Below are positions 30,375 to 42,256 of a stretch of 64,000 nucleotides of DNA, piece after piece. Origin of the DNA: an uncultured Brevundimonas sp. (lineage in GTDB: Bacteria; Pseudomonadota; Alphaproteobacteria; Caulobacterales; Caulobacteraceae); NCBI RefSeq assembly GCF_947305955.1, contig NZ_CAMZFB010000004.1, positions 45,195 through 109,194 of the forward strand. Reading direction: 5' to 3'. How positions within the stretch are numbered: position 1 is the first letter of the stretch; every line of letters starts with the position of its first letter. The notes under the pieces are model-generated. The model was not told the origin of the DNA. It was given only the letters and a program-made list of their open reading frames with translations, and searched no databases. The position numbers were made by a program, and so were the translations under genes.

Positions 30375-33359
30375 ATGTTGAAAGTCCACGGCAGGCGCGG
30401 CCTGCTCGCCGGTTCCATGTTGGCCGGCCTTTGCACCTTCGCCATGGCGGCCCCCGCCACGGCCCAGGAAGTCGATGACGGTGTCGCCGAAGTCGAACAG
30501 ATCGTCGTCACCGGCTCGCGCATCCGTCAGCGCAATCTGGAAACCACAAGCCCGATCACCCAGGTGACCGGCGAGGATATCGACGTCGCCGGTGTGACCC
30601 GCGTCGAAGATCTGGTGACCCAGCTGCCGCAGGCTTTCGCTGCCCAGAACTCGACCTCGGCCAACGGTGCCTACGGCAACGCCACGGTGTCGCTGCGCAA
30701 TATGGGGGCCAACCGCACGCTGGTGCTGATCGACGGTCGCCGCATGGGCTACGGCTCGCCGAACGACGTGGCAGCCGACCTGAACCAAATTCCGGAACAG
30801 CTGATCGAGCGCGTCGAAGTGCTGACCGGCGGTGCCTCGGCTATCTACGGCTCGGACGCCATCTCGGGCGTGGTGAACTTCATCACCAAGAAGGATTTCC
30901 GTGGCCTGCAGATCGATGCCCAGTACGGCTTCTATCAGCACAACAACGACTATGACGGTCCGGGCAATGTGCGCCGTGCCGTGTTGGACAGCGCCAAGCG
31001 CAATCCGGCTGAATACGTGATGCCTGATGATAATGTGTCGGACGGCGAGAGCCGCTCGATCAACATCATCATGGGTACCGGTTCGGATGACGGCCGTGCC
31101 AACCTGATGGCCTATGCGGGTTACCGCCGCAACAACGAGATCGTCGCCGGCCAGCGTGACTTTGGTGCCTGCGCGCTGGGTCTGGACGCAGAAACGGACC
31201 CGTACAACTTCTACTGCTCGGGTTCGGGAACCTCATACCCGGGCCAGTTCCGCAACCTGCTGAACGGGGACACCCTGACGATCGGGGGCAGTGCCGATAA
31301 CGGGACCTTTGTGCCGTACGACAAGACGACGGGTGTCTACAACTATGGTGCCAATGTGCACTTCCAGCGCCCGGATGAGCGCTACATCCTCGGTGCCATG
31401 GGTTCGTATAAGATCAATGATCGTGCCGAGGCCTACGCCCAGCTGATGTTCTCGGACTACAAGTCCGTGGCACAGATCGCTCCGGCAGGGGCCTTCATGG
31501 GGCCGATCATCAATATGAAGTGCGGCAACCCGCTGTTGTCGGCACAACAGCGTACGACGCTGGGCTGCGGCGGTGCCGTAACCGAAGTCGAGATGATGAT
31601 TGGTCGCCGTAACGTCGAGGGCGGTCCGCGTCAGGATTCGATCCACTACAACTCATTCCGGATGGTGACGGGCGTTCGCGGCGCACTGACCGACAGCTGG
31701 AACTATGACGTCACGGGCCAATTCTCGCGCGTGGGTCTGGATCGCGTCTACAACAACGACTTCTCGAAAGAGCGTCTGGCGCGTGCCTTCGACGTGGTTG
31801 ATGTCAACGGCGTGGCGACCTGCCGCTCGGTTGTGGATGGCACGGACAAGAACTGCGTGCCGTACAACATCTTCTCGCCGGGTGGCGTGACCCCAGAAGC
31901 GCTGAAGTATCTTCAGATCCCGCTGCTGCAAAGCGGCTACACCACCCAGCAGATGGTGACGGCTGTCGCCAGCGGCGATCTGGGCGTGAAGATGCCGTGG
32001 TCGGACCTGACGGCTCAGGCAGCTCTCGGCGTTGAATATCGCCGTGACGCGCTGGAATCCCACGCCGATGCCGCGTTCGAAGCCAACGACGGTGCAGGTC
32101 AAGGTGGCCCGACCATCGGCTATTCGGGTTCGGCTGACGTGATGGAAATCTTTGGCGAGCTGCAACTGCCGCTGGCCGAGAATAAGTCGTGGGTCTACTC
32201 GTCGTCGCTCGACATGGCCTATCGCTATTCGAAGTACGACAACTATTCGGCCGATACCTACAAGATCGGTCTGGATTACGCCCCGACCGAGGATGTGCGT
32301 TTCCGCGCCAGCTTCTCCAAGGCTGTCCGTGCTCCGAACGTGATCGAACTGTACCAGGGCCACGGCTACAACCTGTCGTATGCCAAGTTTGATCCGTGCT
32401 CGACGGTGGGCCGCGGCGGTGCCGTTCCGGCCTCGTGTATCGGTACCAATCCGTGGCAGGTTACCGCGGCGCAGGCTGCGGACCCACTGCTGTACAACCC
32501 GTCCGACCAGTACAGCTTCAAACAGGGCGGTAATACCAACCTGACGCCGGAAGAGGCCGAGACCTTCACCTTTGGTGCTGTGTTTACGCCGCGCTTCCTG
32601 CCGGGCTTCAACCTGTCGCTCGACTATTATGACATCAAGGTCGAAAACCTGATCGGCAACCTCGGCATTCAGAACATCTTCGATGCCTGCTATGTCGCGA
32701 ACATGACCCAGATGTGCGAGCGCATCAAACGTGACGCACGAACCGGTTCGCTGTGGCTGAACGAGGGCCACGTTGAGGACACGAGTGTCAACATCGGTGG
32801 CCAGCGCACGTCTGGCATCGACTTGAACGCCAACTACTCGGTTGACCTGAGCGACTGGGGCGCGACGGACATGGGCCGTCTGGCCTTTGGTATGTCGGGC
32901 ACCTGGCTGCAAAGCCTCGAAACCGACACCGGTCTGGGCTTCTCGAACAGCGTCTATGACTGCGCAGGTTACTATGGCAGCGTCTGCGTGCTGCCGAACC
33001 CGGAATGGCGTCACCGCGCCCGTGTGACGTGGATGACCCCGTGGAACGTCGATCTGACGGCCACCTGGCGCCATATCGGCAGTGTGACCCAAGCTCACCT
33101 CGCTCCCGACGGTAGCCTGGGTGGTGCTCCGGCATCGGCGGAGTACGAACTCAGCGACCGTAACTACATCGACCTGGCAGTCACCTGGCAGGCCCGTCAC
33201 AACCTCAAGGTTCGTGCCGGTATCAACAATGTGTTCGATATCGATCCGCCGCTGACCCAAGATGCCGGTTCGCAATCGCTGGGCAGCAACAACACCTATC
33301 CGCAAGTCTACGACTCGATGGGTCGGTTCATGTTCGTGGGTCTGACCGCCGACTTCTAA
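30375..33359 (+). CDS. TonB-dependent outer membrane receptor (third, tandem duplicate of second)
   Basis: A 994-residue receptor with signal peptide 1-31 ('APATAQ'), TonB-box region 'QIVVTGSRIRQRNLETTSP', plug 'NMGANRTLVLIDGRRMGYG' and barrel ending 'GLTADF'. It aligns with the second receptor throughout with few small gaps, so the two arose by tandem duplication and have since diverged mainly in loop segments (for example the region after 'AGYRRNNEI' and the last third of the barrel). The same Cys pairs are kept. GGAGAGGG precedes the ATG. Its own terminator follows. Substrate unknown; diverged loops suggest a related but different ligand. Confidence 0.93.
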   Translation: MLKVHGRRGLLAGSMLAGLCTFAMAAPATAQEVDDGVAEVEQIVVTGSRIRQRNLETTSPITQVTGEDIDVAGVTRVEDLVTQLPQAFAAQNSTSANGAYGNATVSLRNMGANRTLVLIDGRRMGYGSPNDVAADLNQIPEQLIERVEVLTGGASAIYGSDAISGVVNFITKKDFRGLQIDAQYGFYQHNNDYDGPGNVRRAVLDSAKRNPAEYVMPDDNVSDGESRSINIIMGTGSDDGRANLMAYAGYRRNNEIVAGQRDFGACALGLDAETDPYNFYCSGSGTSYPGQFRNLLNGDTLTIGGSADNGTFVPYDKTTGVYNYGANVHFQRPDERYILGAMGSYKINDRAEAYAQLMFSDYKSVAQIAPAGAFMGPIINMKCGNPLLSAQQRTTLGCGGAVTEVEMMIGRRNVEGGPRQDSIHYNSFRMVTGVRGALTDSWNYDVTGQFSRVGLDRVYNNDFSKERLARAFDVVDVNGVATCRSVVDGTDKNCVPYNIFSPGGVTPEALKYLQIPLLQSGYTTQQMVTAVASGDLGVKMPWSDLTAQAALGVEYRRDALESHADAAFEANDGAGQGGPTIGYSGSADVMEIFGELQLPLAENKSWVYSSSLDMAYRYSKYDNYSADTYKIGLDYAPTEDVRFRASFSKAVRAPNVIELYQGHGYNLSYAKFDPCSTVGRGGAVPASCIGTNPWQVTAAQAADPLLYNPSDQYSFKQGGNTNLTPEEAETFTFGAVFTPRFLPGFNLSLDYYDIKVENLIGNLGIQNIFDACYVANMTQMCERIKRDARTGSLWLNEGHVEDTSVNIGGQRTSGIDLNANYSVDLSDWGATDMGRLAFGMSGTWLQSLETDTGLGFSNSVYDCAGYYGSVCVLPNPEWRHRARVTWMTPWNVDLTATWRHIGSVTQAHLAPDGSLGGAPASAEYELSDRNYIDLAVTWQARHNLKVRAGINNVFDIDPPLTQDAGSQSLGSNNTYPQVYDSMGRFMFVGLTADF

Positions 33360-33384
33360 GGCGATCTGGCTCTAGGGCAAAAAG

Positions 33385-33413
33385 GAGGGGCGGTGGTTGA
33401 TCCACCGCCCCTC
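33385..33413 (+). terminator. Terminator of third TonB receptor
   Basis: GAGGGGCGGTGG-TTGAT-CCACCGCCCCTC, perfect 12-bp stem followed by ATTTTTG; lies just before the convergent end of the methionine operon. Confidence 0.92.
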
Positions 33414-33432
33414 ATTTTTGTTTTCAGCAGCT

Positions 33433-36065
<2,633 letters not shown>

Positions 36066-36066
<1 letters not shown>

Positions 36067-36434
36067 CAGGCGTTTTCCAGTTGGGCAAGGCGGCGGACGA
36101 TAGCGGCGAGGTAGCCCTTGCGGTGGCAAGCGGCGATGTGGCCCTCGCTGAACTTCTCGGAACGCACGATATAGGTGGCATAGCCGAGCAGGGTGGCCTG
36201 ATCGGCGGCGGCAATGGTTTCCAGCGACGGGTTCGGTATCCGCTCACCCTTCAGCATGCGGTCATAGACATCCGACGGCCCGCCAAGACCGATGGCCCCC
36301 AGCGCCCGCTCCCACGCGTGGAAGACAGGCGCGTATTTGGCATAGGTGAAGCCGGTGCCTGTCCGCTCCCACGTGACGAACTGCTCGTCGGTGGTCGCGT
36401 CCAGTTGGTCGGCCAACGTCAGCAGGTCAGACAT
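36066..36434 (-). CDS. DUF6508 domain protein inside the split metH locus
   Basis: A 122-residue soluble protein, part of a longer ORF in the track; ATG 36434 overlaps the metH N-part stop as ATGA, and its own TGA overlaps the start of the metH C-part. The closing '[21 protein letters not shown]' and '[13 protein letters not shown]' fit the DUF6508 family as I remember it. No catalytic residues are evident. Four-base overlaps on both sides mean tight translational coupling with both MetH halves, so it may help assemble or stabilise them; this is inference. Confidence 0.75.
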
Positions 36435-37504
36435 CAGGCGACCAGTTCGAACGGTTCCAGACCCGACAGTCGTAGCGCGACGGGGCGTTCCGGAATGGTG
36501 CGCGGGTCCACGCCCGCCACTTCGTCGGCGATGTGTTTGATGTGGTCGGGCGTGGTGCCGCAGCAGCCGCCGACGATATTGACCAGACCCGACTTGGCCC
36601 ATTCCTCGATGAAGTGGCCTGTCTCGTGCGGTTCTTCGTCGTACTGGCCCATGGCGTTTGGCAGGCCCGCGTTCGGATAAGCGCTGACGAGGGTGTCGGC
36701 GACGCGGCTTAGTTCGGCGATGTGCGGACGCATCAGCTCGGCGCCGAGGGCGCAGTTGAAGCCCACGGCGAACGGCTTGGCGTGGCGTACCGAGTTCCAG
36801 AAGGCCTCTGCCGTCTGGCCCGACAGGGTGCGGCCCGAACGGTCGGTGATGGTGCCCGAAATCCAAATGGGCAGGGGCTCATAGCCCTCGTCCTCGAGGT
36901 CCTTCACGGCCTTGATCGCAGCCTTGGCGTTCAGGGTGTCAAAGACGGTCTCGATCAGGAACAGGTCCACGCCGCCGTCATGCAGGGCCTTCGCCTGCTG
37001 CTTGTAGGCGTTATAGACCTCGTCATAGGAAACAGCGCGGTAGCCCGGATCGTTCACATCGGGGCTGAGCGACAGGGTGCGGTTGGTCGGGCCAATGGCA
37101 CCGGCGACAAAGCGCGGCTTGTGCGGCTCCTTCTCGGTCCAGCGGTCAGCGACCTCGCGACCGATACGGGCACCCTCATAGTTCAGATCATAGACCGCAT
37201 CTTCCAGCCCGTAGTCGGCCTGCGCGATGGTCGTGGACGAGAAGGTGTTGGTCTCGGAGATGTCCGCGCCGACGCTGTAATAAACGTCGTGCAGGCCCGC
37301 CACGATGTCGGGACGGGTCAGGATCAGAAGGTCGTTGTTGCCCTTCTGCGGGTGGCTGTGGTTGGCGAACCGCTCGCCGCGGAAGTCTTCCTCGGACAGG
37401 TTCTCGCGCTGGATCATCACGCCCCAGCTGCCGTCCAGAACCAGAATACGATCCTTGGCTGCCTTATAGAGCGCCGCGATACGTTCGGAGCGGGTCAAAG
37501 CCAT
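36434..37504 (-). CDS. metH: Methionine synthase, N-terminal polypeptide (homocysteine methyltransferase domain)
   Basis: The zinc-dependent homocysteine-binding domain of MetH as a stand-alone 356-residue protein. It opens '[19 protein letters not shown]' and has '[13 protein letters not shown]', '[12 protein letters not shown]', and the three zinc Cys in '[12 protein letters not shown]' and '[11 protein letters not shown]'. It must act with the C-terminal polypeptide encoded downstream. Split metH is known in Caulobacter and relatives. It begins 3 bp after the metF stop, so all five genes of the locus form one operon. Confidence 0.94.
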
Positions 37505-37507
37505 AAC

Positions 37508-38452
37508 TCAAGCAGCCTTTTGTTCACGCACGCCCAGAACGCGGCAGATGGCATAGACCAGATCGGCACGGTTCAGGGTGTAGAAGTGGAAGTCCTCGAA
37601 GCCTTCTTCCTGAAGGCGGGCACAGGTTTCGGCGGCGACCGAGGCGGCGATCAGCTTGCGCGTCTCGGGGTCGTTATCCAGACCGTCGAAGTGGGCGGCC
37701 AGCCAGTCGGGCAGGGCGGTACCGCAGGCCGAGGTCATGCGTTGCAGACCGGCAAAGTTCGACACCGGCATGATGCCCGGAATGAGCTTCAGCGTGATGC
37801 CCGCGGCGCGTACCTGATCGCGGAAGCGCAGGAAGGCGTCCAGATCAAAGAAGAACTGGGTCACGGCGCGGGTGGCTCCGGCATCCTGTTTGGCCTTCAG
37901 AACATCCAGATCGTGCTGGATGGACGGGCTTTCGGGGTGTTTCTCGGGGTATGCACCAACAGTGATGTCGAAGCCGCCGACCGCATTGATGGCGCGGGCC
38001 AGTTCGGTGGCGTTGGCATAGCCGTCGGCGCGGGGCTGATAGACGCCGCCGATGCCGTTGCCACCGGGCGGGTCGCCGCGCAGGGCCACGATGTGGTCCA
38101 CGCCGATGGACTTATAGCCCTCGATCACCTCGTCCACCTCCTCGCGGCTGGCCTCGACGCAGGTCAGGTGGGCCGCCGGACGCAGCGATGTTTCGGTGAT
38201 GATGCGTTGAACCGTGCGGTGGGTACGTTCACGCGTCGAGCCACCAGCGCCATAGGTTACCGATACGAAGGCAGGGTTCAGCGGCTCCAGACGGCGGATG
38301 GCCTTCCACAGATTGGCCTCGGCCTCGTCCGTCTTGGGCGGGAAGAACTCGAACGAAACATTGACCGGATTCTTGCTGTTACCGGCGCGGGCCACGGGAC
38401 CCAGCGGCGACAGCAGCAGGGCGCGGGCTTCGGCGAGAGAGGAGGGGGCCAT
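37508..38452 (-). CDS. metF: 5,10-methylenetetrahydrofolate reductase
   Basis: Reduces methylene-THF to methyl-THF, the methyl donor for MetH. 314 residues with 'VSFEFFPPKTDEAEANLW' (catalytic Glu in the FEFFPP motif), 'FVSVTYGAGGSTRERT', 'HIVALRGDPPGG' and 'RAVTQFFFDLDAF'. It starts one base after the stop of the ArsR-methyltransferase gene and ends 3 bp before metH. Its place between the regulator and metH makes this a complete methyl-transfer operon. Confidence 0.96.
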   Translation of the reverse strand: MAPSSLAEARALLLSPLGPVARAGNSKNPVNVSFEFFPPKTDEAEANLWKAIRRLEPLNPAFVSVTYGAGGSTRERTHRTVQRIITETSLRPAAHLTCVEASREEVDEVIEGYKSIGVDHIVALRGDPPGGNGIGGVYQPRADGYANATELARAINAVGGFDITVGAYPEKHPESPSIQHDLDVLKAKQDAGATRAVTQFFFDLDAFLRFRDQVRAAGITLKLIPGIMPVSNFAGLQRMTSACGTALPDWLAAHFDGLDNDPETRKLIAASVAAETCARLQEEGFEDFHFYTLNRADLVYAICRVLGVREQKAA

Positions 38453-38453
38453 G

Positions 38454-39416
38454 TCAGGCGCTCTTTCGGGCAGAGTCGACCGGACGGGTGCCGGTCCAGA
38501 TGTGTACGGTCAGACCTTCGCGGTCGGGTGGCAGAATGATGGGGGCAGAGGCTTCAAGCCCACTCGTTTCCAGCCATTGCGCGATTTCCTCATCGGCAAA
38601 GCCGAGGCGGCGGTGCTGATGGGCCTCGCGCAGATGCTCGAAATTGTGAGGAGCGAAATCAACGATCAGCAGCTTCCCGCCGGGGCAGACGACGCGTGCG
38701 GCCTCGGCAATCGCGGCGGCCGGATCGTTCAGATAGTGCAGAACCTGATGCACGATCACCAGATCGGCGCTGCGTTCGGGCAGGCGGGTCGAGAAGATGT
38801 CGCCGTGGCGCAGTTCCACGCCTTCCAGACCGGCCTTGGTCACATTGGCGCGGGCGATGTTCAGCATGTTCTGGCTCAGGTCCAGGCCCACCGACATGCG
38901 GGCATTCTTGCCCAGCAGGGTCAGCATGCGTCCCGACCCCGTGCCAAGATCGACAACGCGCTCGAACGGTCCGGTGCCGACAGCGCGGATGACGGCTGCT
39001 TCGACGTCGCTTTCGCAGACATAGAGCGATCGCATCTTGTCCCACTGGGGCGCGACCTGTTCGAAATAACGGGCCGCTTCCTCGGCGCGTTCACGGCGCA
39101 CCTCTTCAAGACGGCGGTGGTCCGCTTCGCCTTCGTCATCCGACAGGAGATCGAGAACCGTATCGGTCAGGCGGCGTGCCAGCGCATCGTGCGACAAGCG
39201 GTAGAAGACGCGCGCGCCATCAGGAAAACGTTCGATCAGACCCGCATCGGCCATCAGCTTCAGGTGGCGCGAGACACGCGGCTGGCTTTGGTCCAGGACG
39301 CGGGACAGCTCCATCACCGAGAGTTCCTCGGCGGCCAGTAGGGACAGGATACGCAGTCGGGTCGGCTCGCCAGCGGCGCGCAGAATCTCGACAGTCTGGT
39401 CTGCAGTCAGGTTCAT
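38454..39416 (-). CDS. ArsR-type regulator fused to a SAM-dependent methyltransferase domain
   Basis: A 320-residue fusion. Residues 1-90 are an ArsR winged helix ('GEPTRLRILSLLAAEELSV', 'LDQSQPRVSRHLKLMADAGLI') without the metal-binding Cys motif of metal sensors. Residues 125-300 are a class I methyltransferase fold with SAM motif I 'VVDLGTGSGRMLTLLG', acidic 'VGLDLSQNML', and 'DLVIVHQVLHYLNDP'. It heads the metF-metH operon, so it probably senses SAM or SAH and represses the operon; ArsR-family SahR is a known precedent for methionine-cycle control. A 22-bp palindrome overlaps its promoter. Whether the methyltransferase domain is catalytic or only a sensor cannot be told. Confidence 0.9.
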   Translation of the reverse strand: MNLTADQTVEILRAAGEPTRLRILSLLAAEELSVMELSRVLDQSQPRVSRHLKLMADAGLIERFPDGARVFYRLSHDALARRLTDTVLDLLSDDEGEADHRRLEEVRRERAEEAARYFEQVAPQWDKMRSLYVCESDVEAAVIRAVGTGPFERVVDLGTGSGRMLTLLGKNARMSVGLDLSQNMLNIARANVTKAGLEGVELRHGDIFSTRLPERSADLVIVHQVLHYLNDPAAAIAEAARVVCPGGKLLIVDFAPHNFEHLREAHQHRRLGFADEEIAQWLETSGLEASAPIILPPDREGLTVHIWTGTRPVDSARKSA

Positions 39417-39420
39417 GCCC

Positions 39421-39442
39421 CATATAAAGATATCTTTATATG
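39421..39442. promoter_or_regulatory. 22-bp perfect palindrome overlapping the metF-operon promoter
   Basis: CATATAAAGATATCTTTATATG is self-complementary over all 22 bases, ending 4 bases before the ATG of the ArsR-methyltransferase gene. On the minus strand TTGCAT, a 17-base spacer and TTTATA form a good sigma-70 promoter whose spacer and -10 lie inside the palindrome, so a bound dimer would block initiation. The expected start point is at or next to the ATG, giving a leaderless message. Confidence 0.75.
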
Positions 39443-39551
39443 ATTATGCAAGAAAAATCTTAGCACAGGCGAACACTTATGTCCCGCAACTGACTGCTCA
39501 GTGGAATGGATTATCCAATTTGCGCACCAAATCGGTCGCGCAGAACACGAT

Positions 39552-40478
39552 TTATTCCGGTATCGGCGTAACCAAGGGTTGTCCGGCGAAGTGGGCCGAC
39601 AGGTTTTGCAGCGTCAAAAGCAGCATCCCCTGTACCCCGTTGGTCGTGGCACCGCCTGCATGTGGGGACAACAGGATATTCGGCACATCGATCCAGCGCG
39701 AGGAAGGCGTCGGTTCGGTCTCAAAGACATCCAGCGCGGCACCGCCCAACTGGCCGGTTTTCAGCGCGGCGATAAGGGCGTCCTCATTGACCAGAGAGCC
39801 GCGCGAGACGTTGACGATGATCCCCTGCGGTCCGACAGCCTGAATGACATCGGCGTCTATCAGTCCGCGATTGCTGTCATCCGCGCGACAGGCCACGACC
39901 AGAATATCCGTATCGCTGGCCAGTTGTTTCAGGCTGTCGGCGCGTTTCCATGCCGTCTGCTTGGGCCGCGGCCCCCACCACTGCACCTCTAGATTGAAGG
40001 CCGAGGCACGCCTGGCGACCGCCTCGCCAATGGCTCCCAGTCCGACAATGCCGACCTTCTGGCCCTGAAGCGATCCGGTGATATTGCGCTGTTCAAGGCT
40101 CCAGTCGCCGGTGAGGACCTTGGCATGTCCGGCGACAATCTCGCGGCGGGCGGCAAGGATCAGCCCCATGGCCAGATCGGCCACGTCCTCGTGGTTCACA
40201 TTGGGCGAGTGGCTGAGCTTCAAGCCGCGCTGTCGGCACCATTCGATATCCAGCCCGTCGTATCCGGCGGTGAAACAGGCCACCAGTTCCAGATTGGGCA
40301 GCTTTTCGATGACGGGCTTGTCCAGTGGCTCCTCGCCAGCGGTGACAATGGCCCGAATGTCGCTGGCGGCCTCGACCGGCGGGCCTTCCCACAGGCGATA
40401 GACATCGAACTGGGTTTCGAGGAACGGGCTGAGCGGTGCCAGCATCCGGTTCATGATCAGGACGGCAGGGCGTGTCAT
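39552..40478 (-). CDS. D-2-hydroxyacid dehydrogenase (NAD(P)-dependent)
   Basis: A 308-residue D-isomer-specific dehydrogenase that reduces glyoxylate, hydroxypyruvate or similar 2-oxo acids. The Rossmann motif is 'GQKVGIVGLGAIGEAVARRA' near residue 140. Catalytic residues: Arg in 'VNVSRGSLVNEDAL', Glu in 'LDVFETEPTP', His in 'LLSPHAGGAT'. The bulky 'WWGPRPKQTAWKRADS' after the nucleotide fold lacks an acidic residue at the NAD-selecting position and has Arg, suggesting NADPH preference (inference). Probably GhrB/HPPR-like. It is downstream of ettA on the same strand but separated by a terminator. Confidence 0.9.
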   Translation of the reverse strand: MTRPAVLIMNRMLAPLSPFLETQFDVYRLWEGPPVEAASDIRAIVTAGEEPLDKPVIEKLPNLELVACFTAGYDGLDIEWCRQRGLKLSHSPNVNHEDVADLAMGLILAARREIVAGHAKVLTGDWSLEQRNITGSLQGQKVGIVGLGAIGEAVARRASAFNLEVQWWGPRPKQTAWKRADSLKQLASDTDILVVACRADDSNRGLIDADVIQAVGPQGIIVNVSRGSLVNEDALIAALKTGQLGGAALDVFETEPTPSSRWIDVPNILLSPHAGGATTNGVQGMLLLTLQNLSAHFAGQPLVTPIPE

Positions 40479-40535
40479 GTCTCTACACTACCGCTGTTAT
40501 CCAATCTGGCCAGACCTAACACGCCGCAAAGAAAA

Positions 40536-40564
40536 ACGGCCCCGCCCGTGGTGGGCGAGGCCGT
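40536..40564 (-). terminator. Terminator of ettA
   Basis: ACGGCCCCGCCC / GGGCGAGGCCGT stem with one mismatch, loop GTGGT; on the minus strand followed by TTTTTC. It lies 25 bp after the ettA stop. Confidence 0.8.
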
Positions 40565-40588
40565 TGATCCGGTCAGCGAAAGATTGGT

Positions 40589-42256
40589 TTAGCGGCCGAA
40601 CTTCTGGTGCTGGATACGCTTCGGAATGATGCTGTCGGCACCAAGGCGGCGCATCTTGTCCTGTTCGTAGGCTTCGAAGTTACCTTCGAACCATTCCACG
40701 TGACCGTCACCTTCGAAGGCGAGGATGTGGGTGGCCAGACGGTCAAGGAACCAGCGGTCGTGGCTGATGACCACGGCGCAGCCGGCGAACTCTTCCAGAG
40801 CCTCTTCGAGGTTCTGCAGGGTTTCGATGTCCAGGTCGTTGGTCGGTTCGTCGAGCAGGATCAGGTTGCCGCCGGTGGCCAGCGTCTTGGCAAGGTGGAC
40901 GCGGTTGCGCTCACCGCCCGACAGCAGGCCGACCTTCTTCTGTTGGTCGCCGCCCTTGAAGTTGAACGAGCCGACGTAGGCGCGGGTGTTGATCTCGCGC
41001 TTGCCGACCATCATCACGTCGGTGCCGCCCGAAATGGCCTGCCAGATGGTGTCTTCAGGCTTCAGGTCATCGCGCGACTGGTCGACATAGGCCAGCTTCA
41101 CGGTCTCGCCGACACGGATGGTGCCTTCGTCCGGGGTTTCCTGACCGGTGATCAGCTTGAACAGGGTCGACTTACCGGCACCGTTCGGGCCGATGACGCC
41201 AACGATACCGTTCGGCGGCAGCTTGAAGGTCAGGTCCTTGAAGAGCTGCTTGTCGCCGAACTTCTTGGACAGGCCATTGACTTCCAGCACCACGTTACCG
41301 AGGCGCGGGCCCGGCGGGATCTGGATGTGGGCGTAGGTCTGGGCGCCGCGTTGCGACTCCTGTTCCTCCACCATGCGCTCATAGGCGGCCAGACGGGCCT
41401 TCGACTTGGCCTGACGGGCCTTGGCACCCGAACGGACCCATTCCAGTTCGCGGGTAAGGGCGCGCTGGCGGGCTTCCGATTCCGATTGCTCCTGAACGAC
41501 GCGCTTCTGCTTGGCTTCCAGCCACGAGGAGTAGTTACCCTCGTGCGGGTGGCCTTTGCCGCGGTCCAGTTCCAGCGTCCACTTGGTCACTTGGTCAAGG
41601 AAGTAACGGTCGTGGGTCACGAGGATGACGCAGCCCGGGAAGTTTTCCAGGTGGTGCTGCAGCCACGCGACGGATTCGGCGTCCAGGTGGTTGGTCGGTT
41701 CGTCCATCAGCAGCATGTCGGGCTTCGACAGCAGCAGACGGGCGAGTGCGACGCGGCGCTTTTCACCACCCGACAGGTTGGTCACGGCCCAATCGTCCGG
41801 CGGGCAGCGCAGGGCGCCCATGGCCATTTCGATACGGCTGTCGATGTCCCACACGTCGGCGGCGTCGATCTTCTCCTGGAGAGCGGTCATCTCTTCCATG
41901 AGTTCGTCGGTGTAGTTTTCACCCAGCTCGGCAGCGATCTGGTTGAAACGGTTCACCCACTGCTTTTCTTCGCACCAGGCTTCGACGTTTTCGCGGACGT
42001 TCAGGTTCGGATCGAGCTGCGGCTCTTGTTCCAGATAGCCGCGCTTGATGCCATCGGCAGCACGGGCTTCACCCTGATATTCGTTGTCCAGACCGGCCAT
42101 GATCTTCAGCAGGGTGGACTTACCCGAGCCGTTCACGCCGACCACGCCGATCTTGGCGTCGTTATAGAAGCTGAGCCAGATGTTCTCGAAGACTTTCTTG
42201 CCGCCGGGGTAGGCCTTGGTCAGGCCCTGCATCTGGAAAATATATTGTTGCGCCAT
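40589..42256 (-). CDS. ettA: Energy-dependent translational throttle protein EttA (ABC-F)
   Basis: A soluble ABC-F ATPase that binds the ribosomal E site and gates early elongation according to ATP/ADP. Two ABC cassettes: Walker A 'GVNGSGKSTLL' and 'GPNGAGKSTLF'; signatures 'LSGGEKRRVALARLLL' and 'LSGGERNRVHLAKTLA'; Walker B 'MLLMDEPTNHLD' and 'LILLDEPTNDLD'. The opening 'MAQQYIFQMQGLTKAYPGGK' and length 555 are those of EttA itself, including the short arm insert after the first Walker A. No membrane segments. The 200 bp upstream hold no obvious element. Confidence 0.95.
   Translation of the reverse strand: MAQQYIFQMQGLTKAYPGGKKVFENIWLSFYNDAKIGVVGVNGSGKSTLLKIMAGLDNEYQGEARAADGIKRGYLEQEPQLDPNLNVRENVEAWCEEKQWVNRFNQIAAELGENYTDELMEEMTALQEKIDAADVWDIDSRIEMAMGALRCPPDDWAVTNLSGGEKRRVALARLLLSKPDMLLMDEPTNHLDAESVAWLQHHLENFPGCVILVTHDRYFLDQVTKWTLELDRGKGHPHEGNYSSWLEAKQKRVVQEQSESEARQRALTRELEWVRSGAKARQAKSKARLAAYERMVEEQESQRGAQTYAHIQIPPGPRLGNVVLEVNGLSKKFGDKQLFKDLTFKLPPNGIVGVIGPNGAGKSTLFKLITGQETPDEGTIRVGETVKLAYVDQSRDDLKPEDTIWQAISGGTDVMMVGKREINTRAYVGSFNFKGGDQQKKVGLLSGGERNRVHLAKTLATGGNLILLDEPTNDLDIETLQNLEEALEEFAGCAVVISHDRWFLDRLATHILAFEGDGHVEWFEGNFEAYEQDKMRRLGADSIIPKRIQHQKFGR

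Follow-up and report, generated by a model that had tools for sequence, protein, structure and literature searches.

A predicted SahR operator within the probably leaderless promoter of the sahR-metF-metH operon in Brevundimonas

What is a long perfect palindrome doing directly in front of the regulatory gene that heads a methionine operon? The question is raised by an uncultured Brevundimonas sp. (assembly GCF_947305955.1, contig NZ_CAMZFB010000004.1), from which 64,000 nt covering positions 45,195-109,194 of the forward strand were analysed; this whole stretch is called the window below. A prior reading made from the letters alone (the sequence-only reading) had reported a perfect 22-bp palindrome, which is real and lies exactly at 39421-39442 (no strand assigned) with the sequence CATATAAAGATATCTTTATATG. 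Within it, at 39422-39441, is a 20-bp core, ATATAAAGATATCTTTATAT, that is conserved among relatives. The 22-mer is the longest perfect palindrome of the window, where the runner-up spans 14 bp; it has a single match in the 64 kb even when three mismatches are allowed, and it is absent from 100 shuffles. The palindrome is predicted to be the operator of SahR, the product of the gene downstream. The explanation as a whole, in which a SahR operator sits in the gene's own promoter, repression is relieved by S-adenosylhomocysteine (SAH) and transcription starts at or near the sahR ATG, is in our judgement very probably correct.

The gene in question, sahR (38454-39416, minus strand), encodes a protein of 320 aa that joins an ArsR-family helix-turn-helix domain (PF01022, 3.7e-14) to a SAM/SAH-binding methyltransferase-like domain (PF08241, 2.1e-23). 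The latter is of the class I type, and its GxGxG motif is invariant among 101 orthologs. The closest named relatives of the protein are found in Brevundimonas pishanensis (89% identity) and B. terrae (87%), and a search of solved structures returned separate ArsR-type and methyltransferase relatives only, with no full-length SahR. The methionine operon that had been proposed behind this gene is present, all of it on the minus strand: sahR is followed by metF, encoding methylenetetrahydrofolate reductase (37508-38452; TIGR00676, 332 bits, above the cut-off), and by a split metH, whose first part carries the homocysteine S-methyltransferase domain (36434-37504; PF02574, 3e-96) and whose second part carries the pterin-binding, B12-binding and activation domains (33433-36066, with the start set at an internal ATG; PF00809, PF02607, PF02310 and PF02965; NF007024, 1512.7 bits). 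The gene directly after the regulator is metF in 80 of 80 related loci, and the metH parts also follow in 74 of these, most of the others being a short contig or stretch. A DUF6508 gene (36066-36434, minus strand; PF20118, 5.8e-11) lies between the metH parts and overlaps each of them by one base; it is there in only 3 of the 80 related loci.

The palindrome stands where a promoter for this operon would be expected from the sequence-only reading, which had placed TTGCAT-N17-TTTATA on the minus strand with the palindrome over the spacer and the -10. The elements are indeed found there: a putative -35 box, TTGCAT, at 39446-39451, a spacer of 17 bases at 39429-39445 and a putative -10 box, TTTATA, at 39423-39428, the last within the right half of the operator. 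Six bases (39417-39422, minus strand) separate the -10 box from the ATG, and the predicted transcription start, judged from this spacing and the missing Shine-Dalgarno sequence, is the first base of the sahR start codon (39416, minus strand). A simple sigma-70 consensus scan leaves the sahR promoter unflagged, and the case for it is therefore a comparative one, drawn from 79 distinct Brevundimonas regions upstream of sahR. A -35-like box is found in 76 of them, reading CTTG in 69, at the same place as in the window, and CTTC in seven, and in all 76 the ATG follows this box at 35-37 bases. A CTTG box begins 10 bases ahead of the 20-mer, which is followed by the ATG after 5-7 bases; for a CTTC box, the corresponding distances are 8 and 9 bases. 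The position of the palindrome shifts between box and ATG from one class to the other, whereas the distance from box to ATG stays constant. A Shine-Dalgarno 4-mer is absent from 78 of the 79 upstream regions, and in the sole region with such a 4-mer the gap is longer as well, at 23 bases. We read the constant distance and the missing Shine-Dalgarno sequence as signs of a promoter whose transcripts begin at the ATG. Most likely, sahR transcription begins at the ATG or within 1-2 bases of it and the mRNA is leaderless, a layout that had already been proposed and that this comparison supports. Such mRNAs are frequent in a relative, Caulobacter crescentus, in which 375 coding sequences (9.6%) are leaderless (PMC4117421). 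Upstream on the same strand lies a 2-hydroxyacid dehydrogenase gene (39552-40478, minus strand). No intrinsic terminator was found between it and sahR (39417-39551), so read-through from this gene into the operon may occur.

The same 79 regions bear on whether the palindrome has any function. A chance AT-rich palindrome is not absurd on length grounds, given that palindromes of at least 22 bp arose in 2 of 60 first-order Markov simulations of 64 kb. The core, however, is conserved across all 79 regions: 13 of its 20 columns are invariant and those of TATAA-GATATC-TTAT are invariant or nearly so, although the sequences have mostly diverged beyond ~17 bases upstream of the palindrome. This conservation, together with the recurrence of the motif before ahcY and metK, refutes a chance origin, the probability of which we regard as negligible. 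In 11 regions, all from one clade, the second base pair has changed from A-T to G-C in the two halves together, and matched changes at both ends are what is expected of a symmetric dimer site.

Outside Brevundimonas, the motif occurs in 19 of 20 sahR upstream regions drawn from four other families of the order. The operator lies near the ATG, as in the window, in one of these families (f2) but at a greater distance upstream in the remaining three, and the leaderless layout is therefore not shared by all. All nine genomes of f2 encode the recognition helix QPRLSHHLK in place of QPRVSRHLK, and in the same nine the operator is altered, with the right half GTTTATAT. A joint change of helix and operator is expected if the SahR protein reads the site, and its presence in nine genomes probably goes back to one ancestral event.

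Sites of the same kind were also looked for before other methionine genes, with a positive result. In the window genome, the other two convincing copies of the operator lie upstream of ahcY and metK only, and the identities of these genes were confirmed by TIGR00936 and TIGR01034. Two weak matches in this genome, with 3 mismatches each, have no tested SAM-cycle gene adjoining and were set aside as background. When a scoring matrix built from the sahR sites was applied to 30 Brevundimonas genomes, a site was found before sahR, ahcY and metK in 30 of 30, at 22-32 bits, compared with at most 6.2 for coding-region controls. Scans of 12 whole genomes gave 3-5 sites each; a reversed control pattern gave none in 11 of these genomes and one in the twelfth.

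The individual sites differ in placement and shape. The ahcY operator, ~82-122 bases upstream of the start codon, lies just upstream of a TTG...CTATA-like promoter and apparently outside it, a position that appears to suit simple steric repression less well. At metK, the operator is asymmetric in most of the genus, usually with ATATAAGC on the left and CTTTATAT on the right, and is perhaps a weaker site. It abuts a TTGAAC-like box separated from TTTATA by 13 bases, as against 17 at sahR, so the phase of the metK promoter relative to the operator differs from that of sahR; metK also has an apparent leader with a Shine-Dalgarno sequence. A SahR-type site is also found ~60-80 bases upstream of a PfkB-family kinase gene in 12 of the 30 genomes, apparently just upstream of promoter-like boxes and not within them. 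This kinase is possibly an adenosine kinase, in which case it would dispose of the adenosine that AhcY produces. The window genome has no site before the PfkB kinase gene, and the kinase is for this reason left out of the finding. Finally, SahR-type sites lie upstream of mesX (PF08908; likely with metE) in one Brevundimonas genome and upstream of metE in a second, which suggests that B12-independent methionine synthesis can join the SahR regulon.

The palindrome might instead exert its main effect at the RNA level, as a hairpin or attenuator in a leader ahead of the start codon, and a transcript from an upstream promoter could indeed fold it into a hairpin right before the ATG. Several observations speak against such a role and make it highly unlikely. 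Conservation extends beyond the palindrome to the -35-like box, which keeps its distance from the ATG, and the sites before ahcY and the kinase gene stand well away from the start codons, and the motif is found on either side of promoter-like elements. In addition, the 10 kb surrounding the operon (32000-42000 of the window) gave no Rfam match and hence no upstream riboswitch, in agreement with the sequence-only reading, which had favoured a protein over a riboswitch. Whole-genome searches with RF00521 and RF01057 gave no match, but their controls gave no signal either, and these searches carry no weight in the argument.

We therefore return to SahR as a DNA-binding repressor and propose the following mechanism. 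A SahR dimer would use its winged helix-turn-helix to bind the two ATATAAAG half-sites, and the bound protein would cover the spacer and the -10 of the sahR-metF-metH promoter and block RNA polymerase. Accumulated SAH would bind the methyltransferase-like domain and cause SahR to release the operator, which would allow expression of ahcY, metF, metH and metK, for SAH clearance and renewal of methionine and SAM, as well as of sahR itself. That a regulator with a SAM-binding domain controls its own operon, as first suggested by the sequence-only reading, is supported by the pairing of an ArsR helix-turn-helix with a methyltransferase-type domain and by the operator before the protein's own gene. 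Autoregulation is also supported in Ensifer aridi, where sahR expression is highest in a sahR deletion strain (PMC8877191). For the window organism, we infer both repression and its release by SAH.

As to the effector, the suggestion had been feedback by SAM or SAH; published work on SahR favours the second. End-product feedback through a repressor loaded with SAM, the mode proposed for SamR of Xanthomonadales, would fit the SAM-dependent methyltransferase fold with its intact GxGxG motif and the presence of metK and metH among the targets. Against it, ahcY, whose product removes SAH, is targeted in 30 of 30 genomes, and Leyn et al. infer SAM for SamR from a regulon without SAM-cycle genes except metK (PMC4239095). 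Binding of Desulfovibrio SahR to its operators is reported to depend on SAH (PMC8877191). SAM as the effector is thus improbable. We give a similarly small chance to a protein that both senses SAH and acts as a methyltransferase, for example on arsenite, and is released by its own product; if true, such a repressor would tie a single methylation reaction directly to the regeneration of the methyl cycle.

An arsenic function has in fact been published for a close counterpart. In Brevundimonas sp. M20, an operon described as arsR^M-metF-HMT-metH encodes a regulator called an arsenite methyltransferase, which shifts its own promoter fragment in a gel shift; it is also reported to act as a methyltransferase on As(III) and to make E. 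coli more resistant to arsenite (PMC10190100). The M20 protein resembles the window protein in operon order, gene length (960 bp), the residues C134, H223, Q224, H227 and Y228 and the motif DLGTGSG; it differs in being read as an arsenite methyltransferase with a 12-bp palindromic operator, CTTTATATAAAG, where we read a SahR with an operator of 20-22 bp (PMC10190100). The text of that paper mentions neither SahR nor the abbreviation SAH. From these reports one could take the window protein to be an arsenic-responsive ArsR^M and the palindrome to be an arsenic-regulated operator that links methionine and arsenic metabolism.

Several findings make this reading very unlikely. Across the genus, the regulon is that of the SAM cycle (ahcY, metK, metF, metH). 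The window protein scores 62.3 bits against the arsenite methyltransferase model PRK11873, below its cut-off of 263, and has no cysteine at residues 31-38, which we take to be the region where classical ArsR proteins carry their As(III)-binding cysteine pair. Residue 134 is variable among 81 proteins of the genus (S in 39, C in 36, R in 6), and nine orthologs from outside the genus contain no cysteine at all. The identification as a metalloregulator or arsenite methyltransferase was accordingly rejected, the model's cut-off not being reached and a conserved As(III)-binding cysteine not being found. The 12-bp palindrome itself is present in just 5 of 80 upstream regions, where it is made up of the conserved operator's right half and the following AAAG; on this comparative evidence, it is a lineage-specific overlap of the two. 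Because CTTTATATAAAG is rare and part of the conserved operator, and because C134 is variable, the M20 gel shift supports the 20-22-bp operator, and any arsenic role of the protein would be secondary at most. Read as SahR-controlled, the operon joins a known SAH-responsive regulon, as does a gene that has been published under a different name, and the operator assigned to the M20 protein is corrected. The locus also offers a clean comparative example of a probably leaderless promoter that incorporates a repressor site.

The SahR system has already been described, and what is reported here is not a new regulon. In that description, the SahR motif is a 20-bp palindrome, the core regulon comprises sahR, ahcY, metH, metH2, metF and metK, and SahR was found in 4 of 4 Caulobacterales and in other Proteobacteria (PMC4239095). 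The likeness extends to protein architecture, with an ArsR helix-turn-helix and a SAM/SAH-binding domain in one 320-aa protein, to the 20-bp palindrome upstream of the protein's own gene, to autoregulation, to the targets, with metF and metH in the operon and ahcY and metK preceded by sites in 30 of 30 genomes, and to presence in Caulobacterales (PMC4239095). By architecture, motif and regulon, the window protein thus appears to match SahR, and nothing was found that would exclude this assignment. SamR of Xanthomonadales is likewise a SahR-like regulator adjoining methionine synthase genes, but its palindrome spans 24 bp and metK is its only SAM-cycle gene (PMC4239095); the operator described here has 20-22 bp and ahcY is among the targets, so the protein does not fit SamR. 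Relative to the available part of the SahR description (PMC4239095), an operator within an apparently leaderless promoter and the sites before the PfkB-kinase gene, metE and mesX-metE are extra details of an otherwise familiar system.
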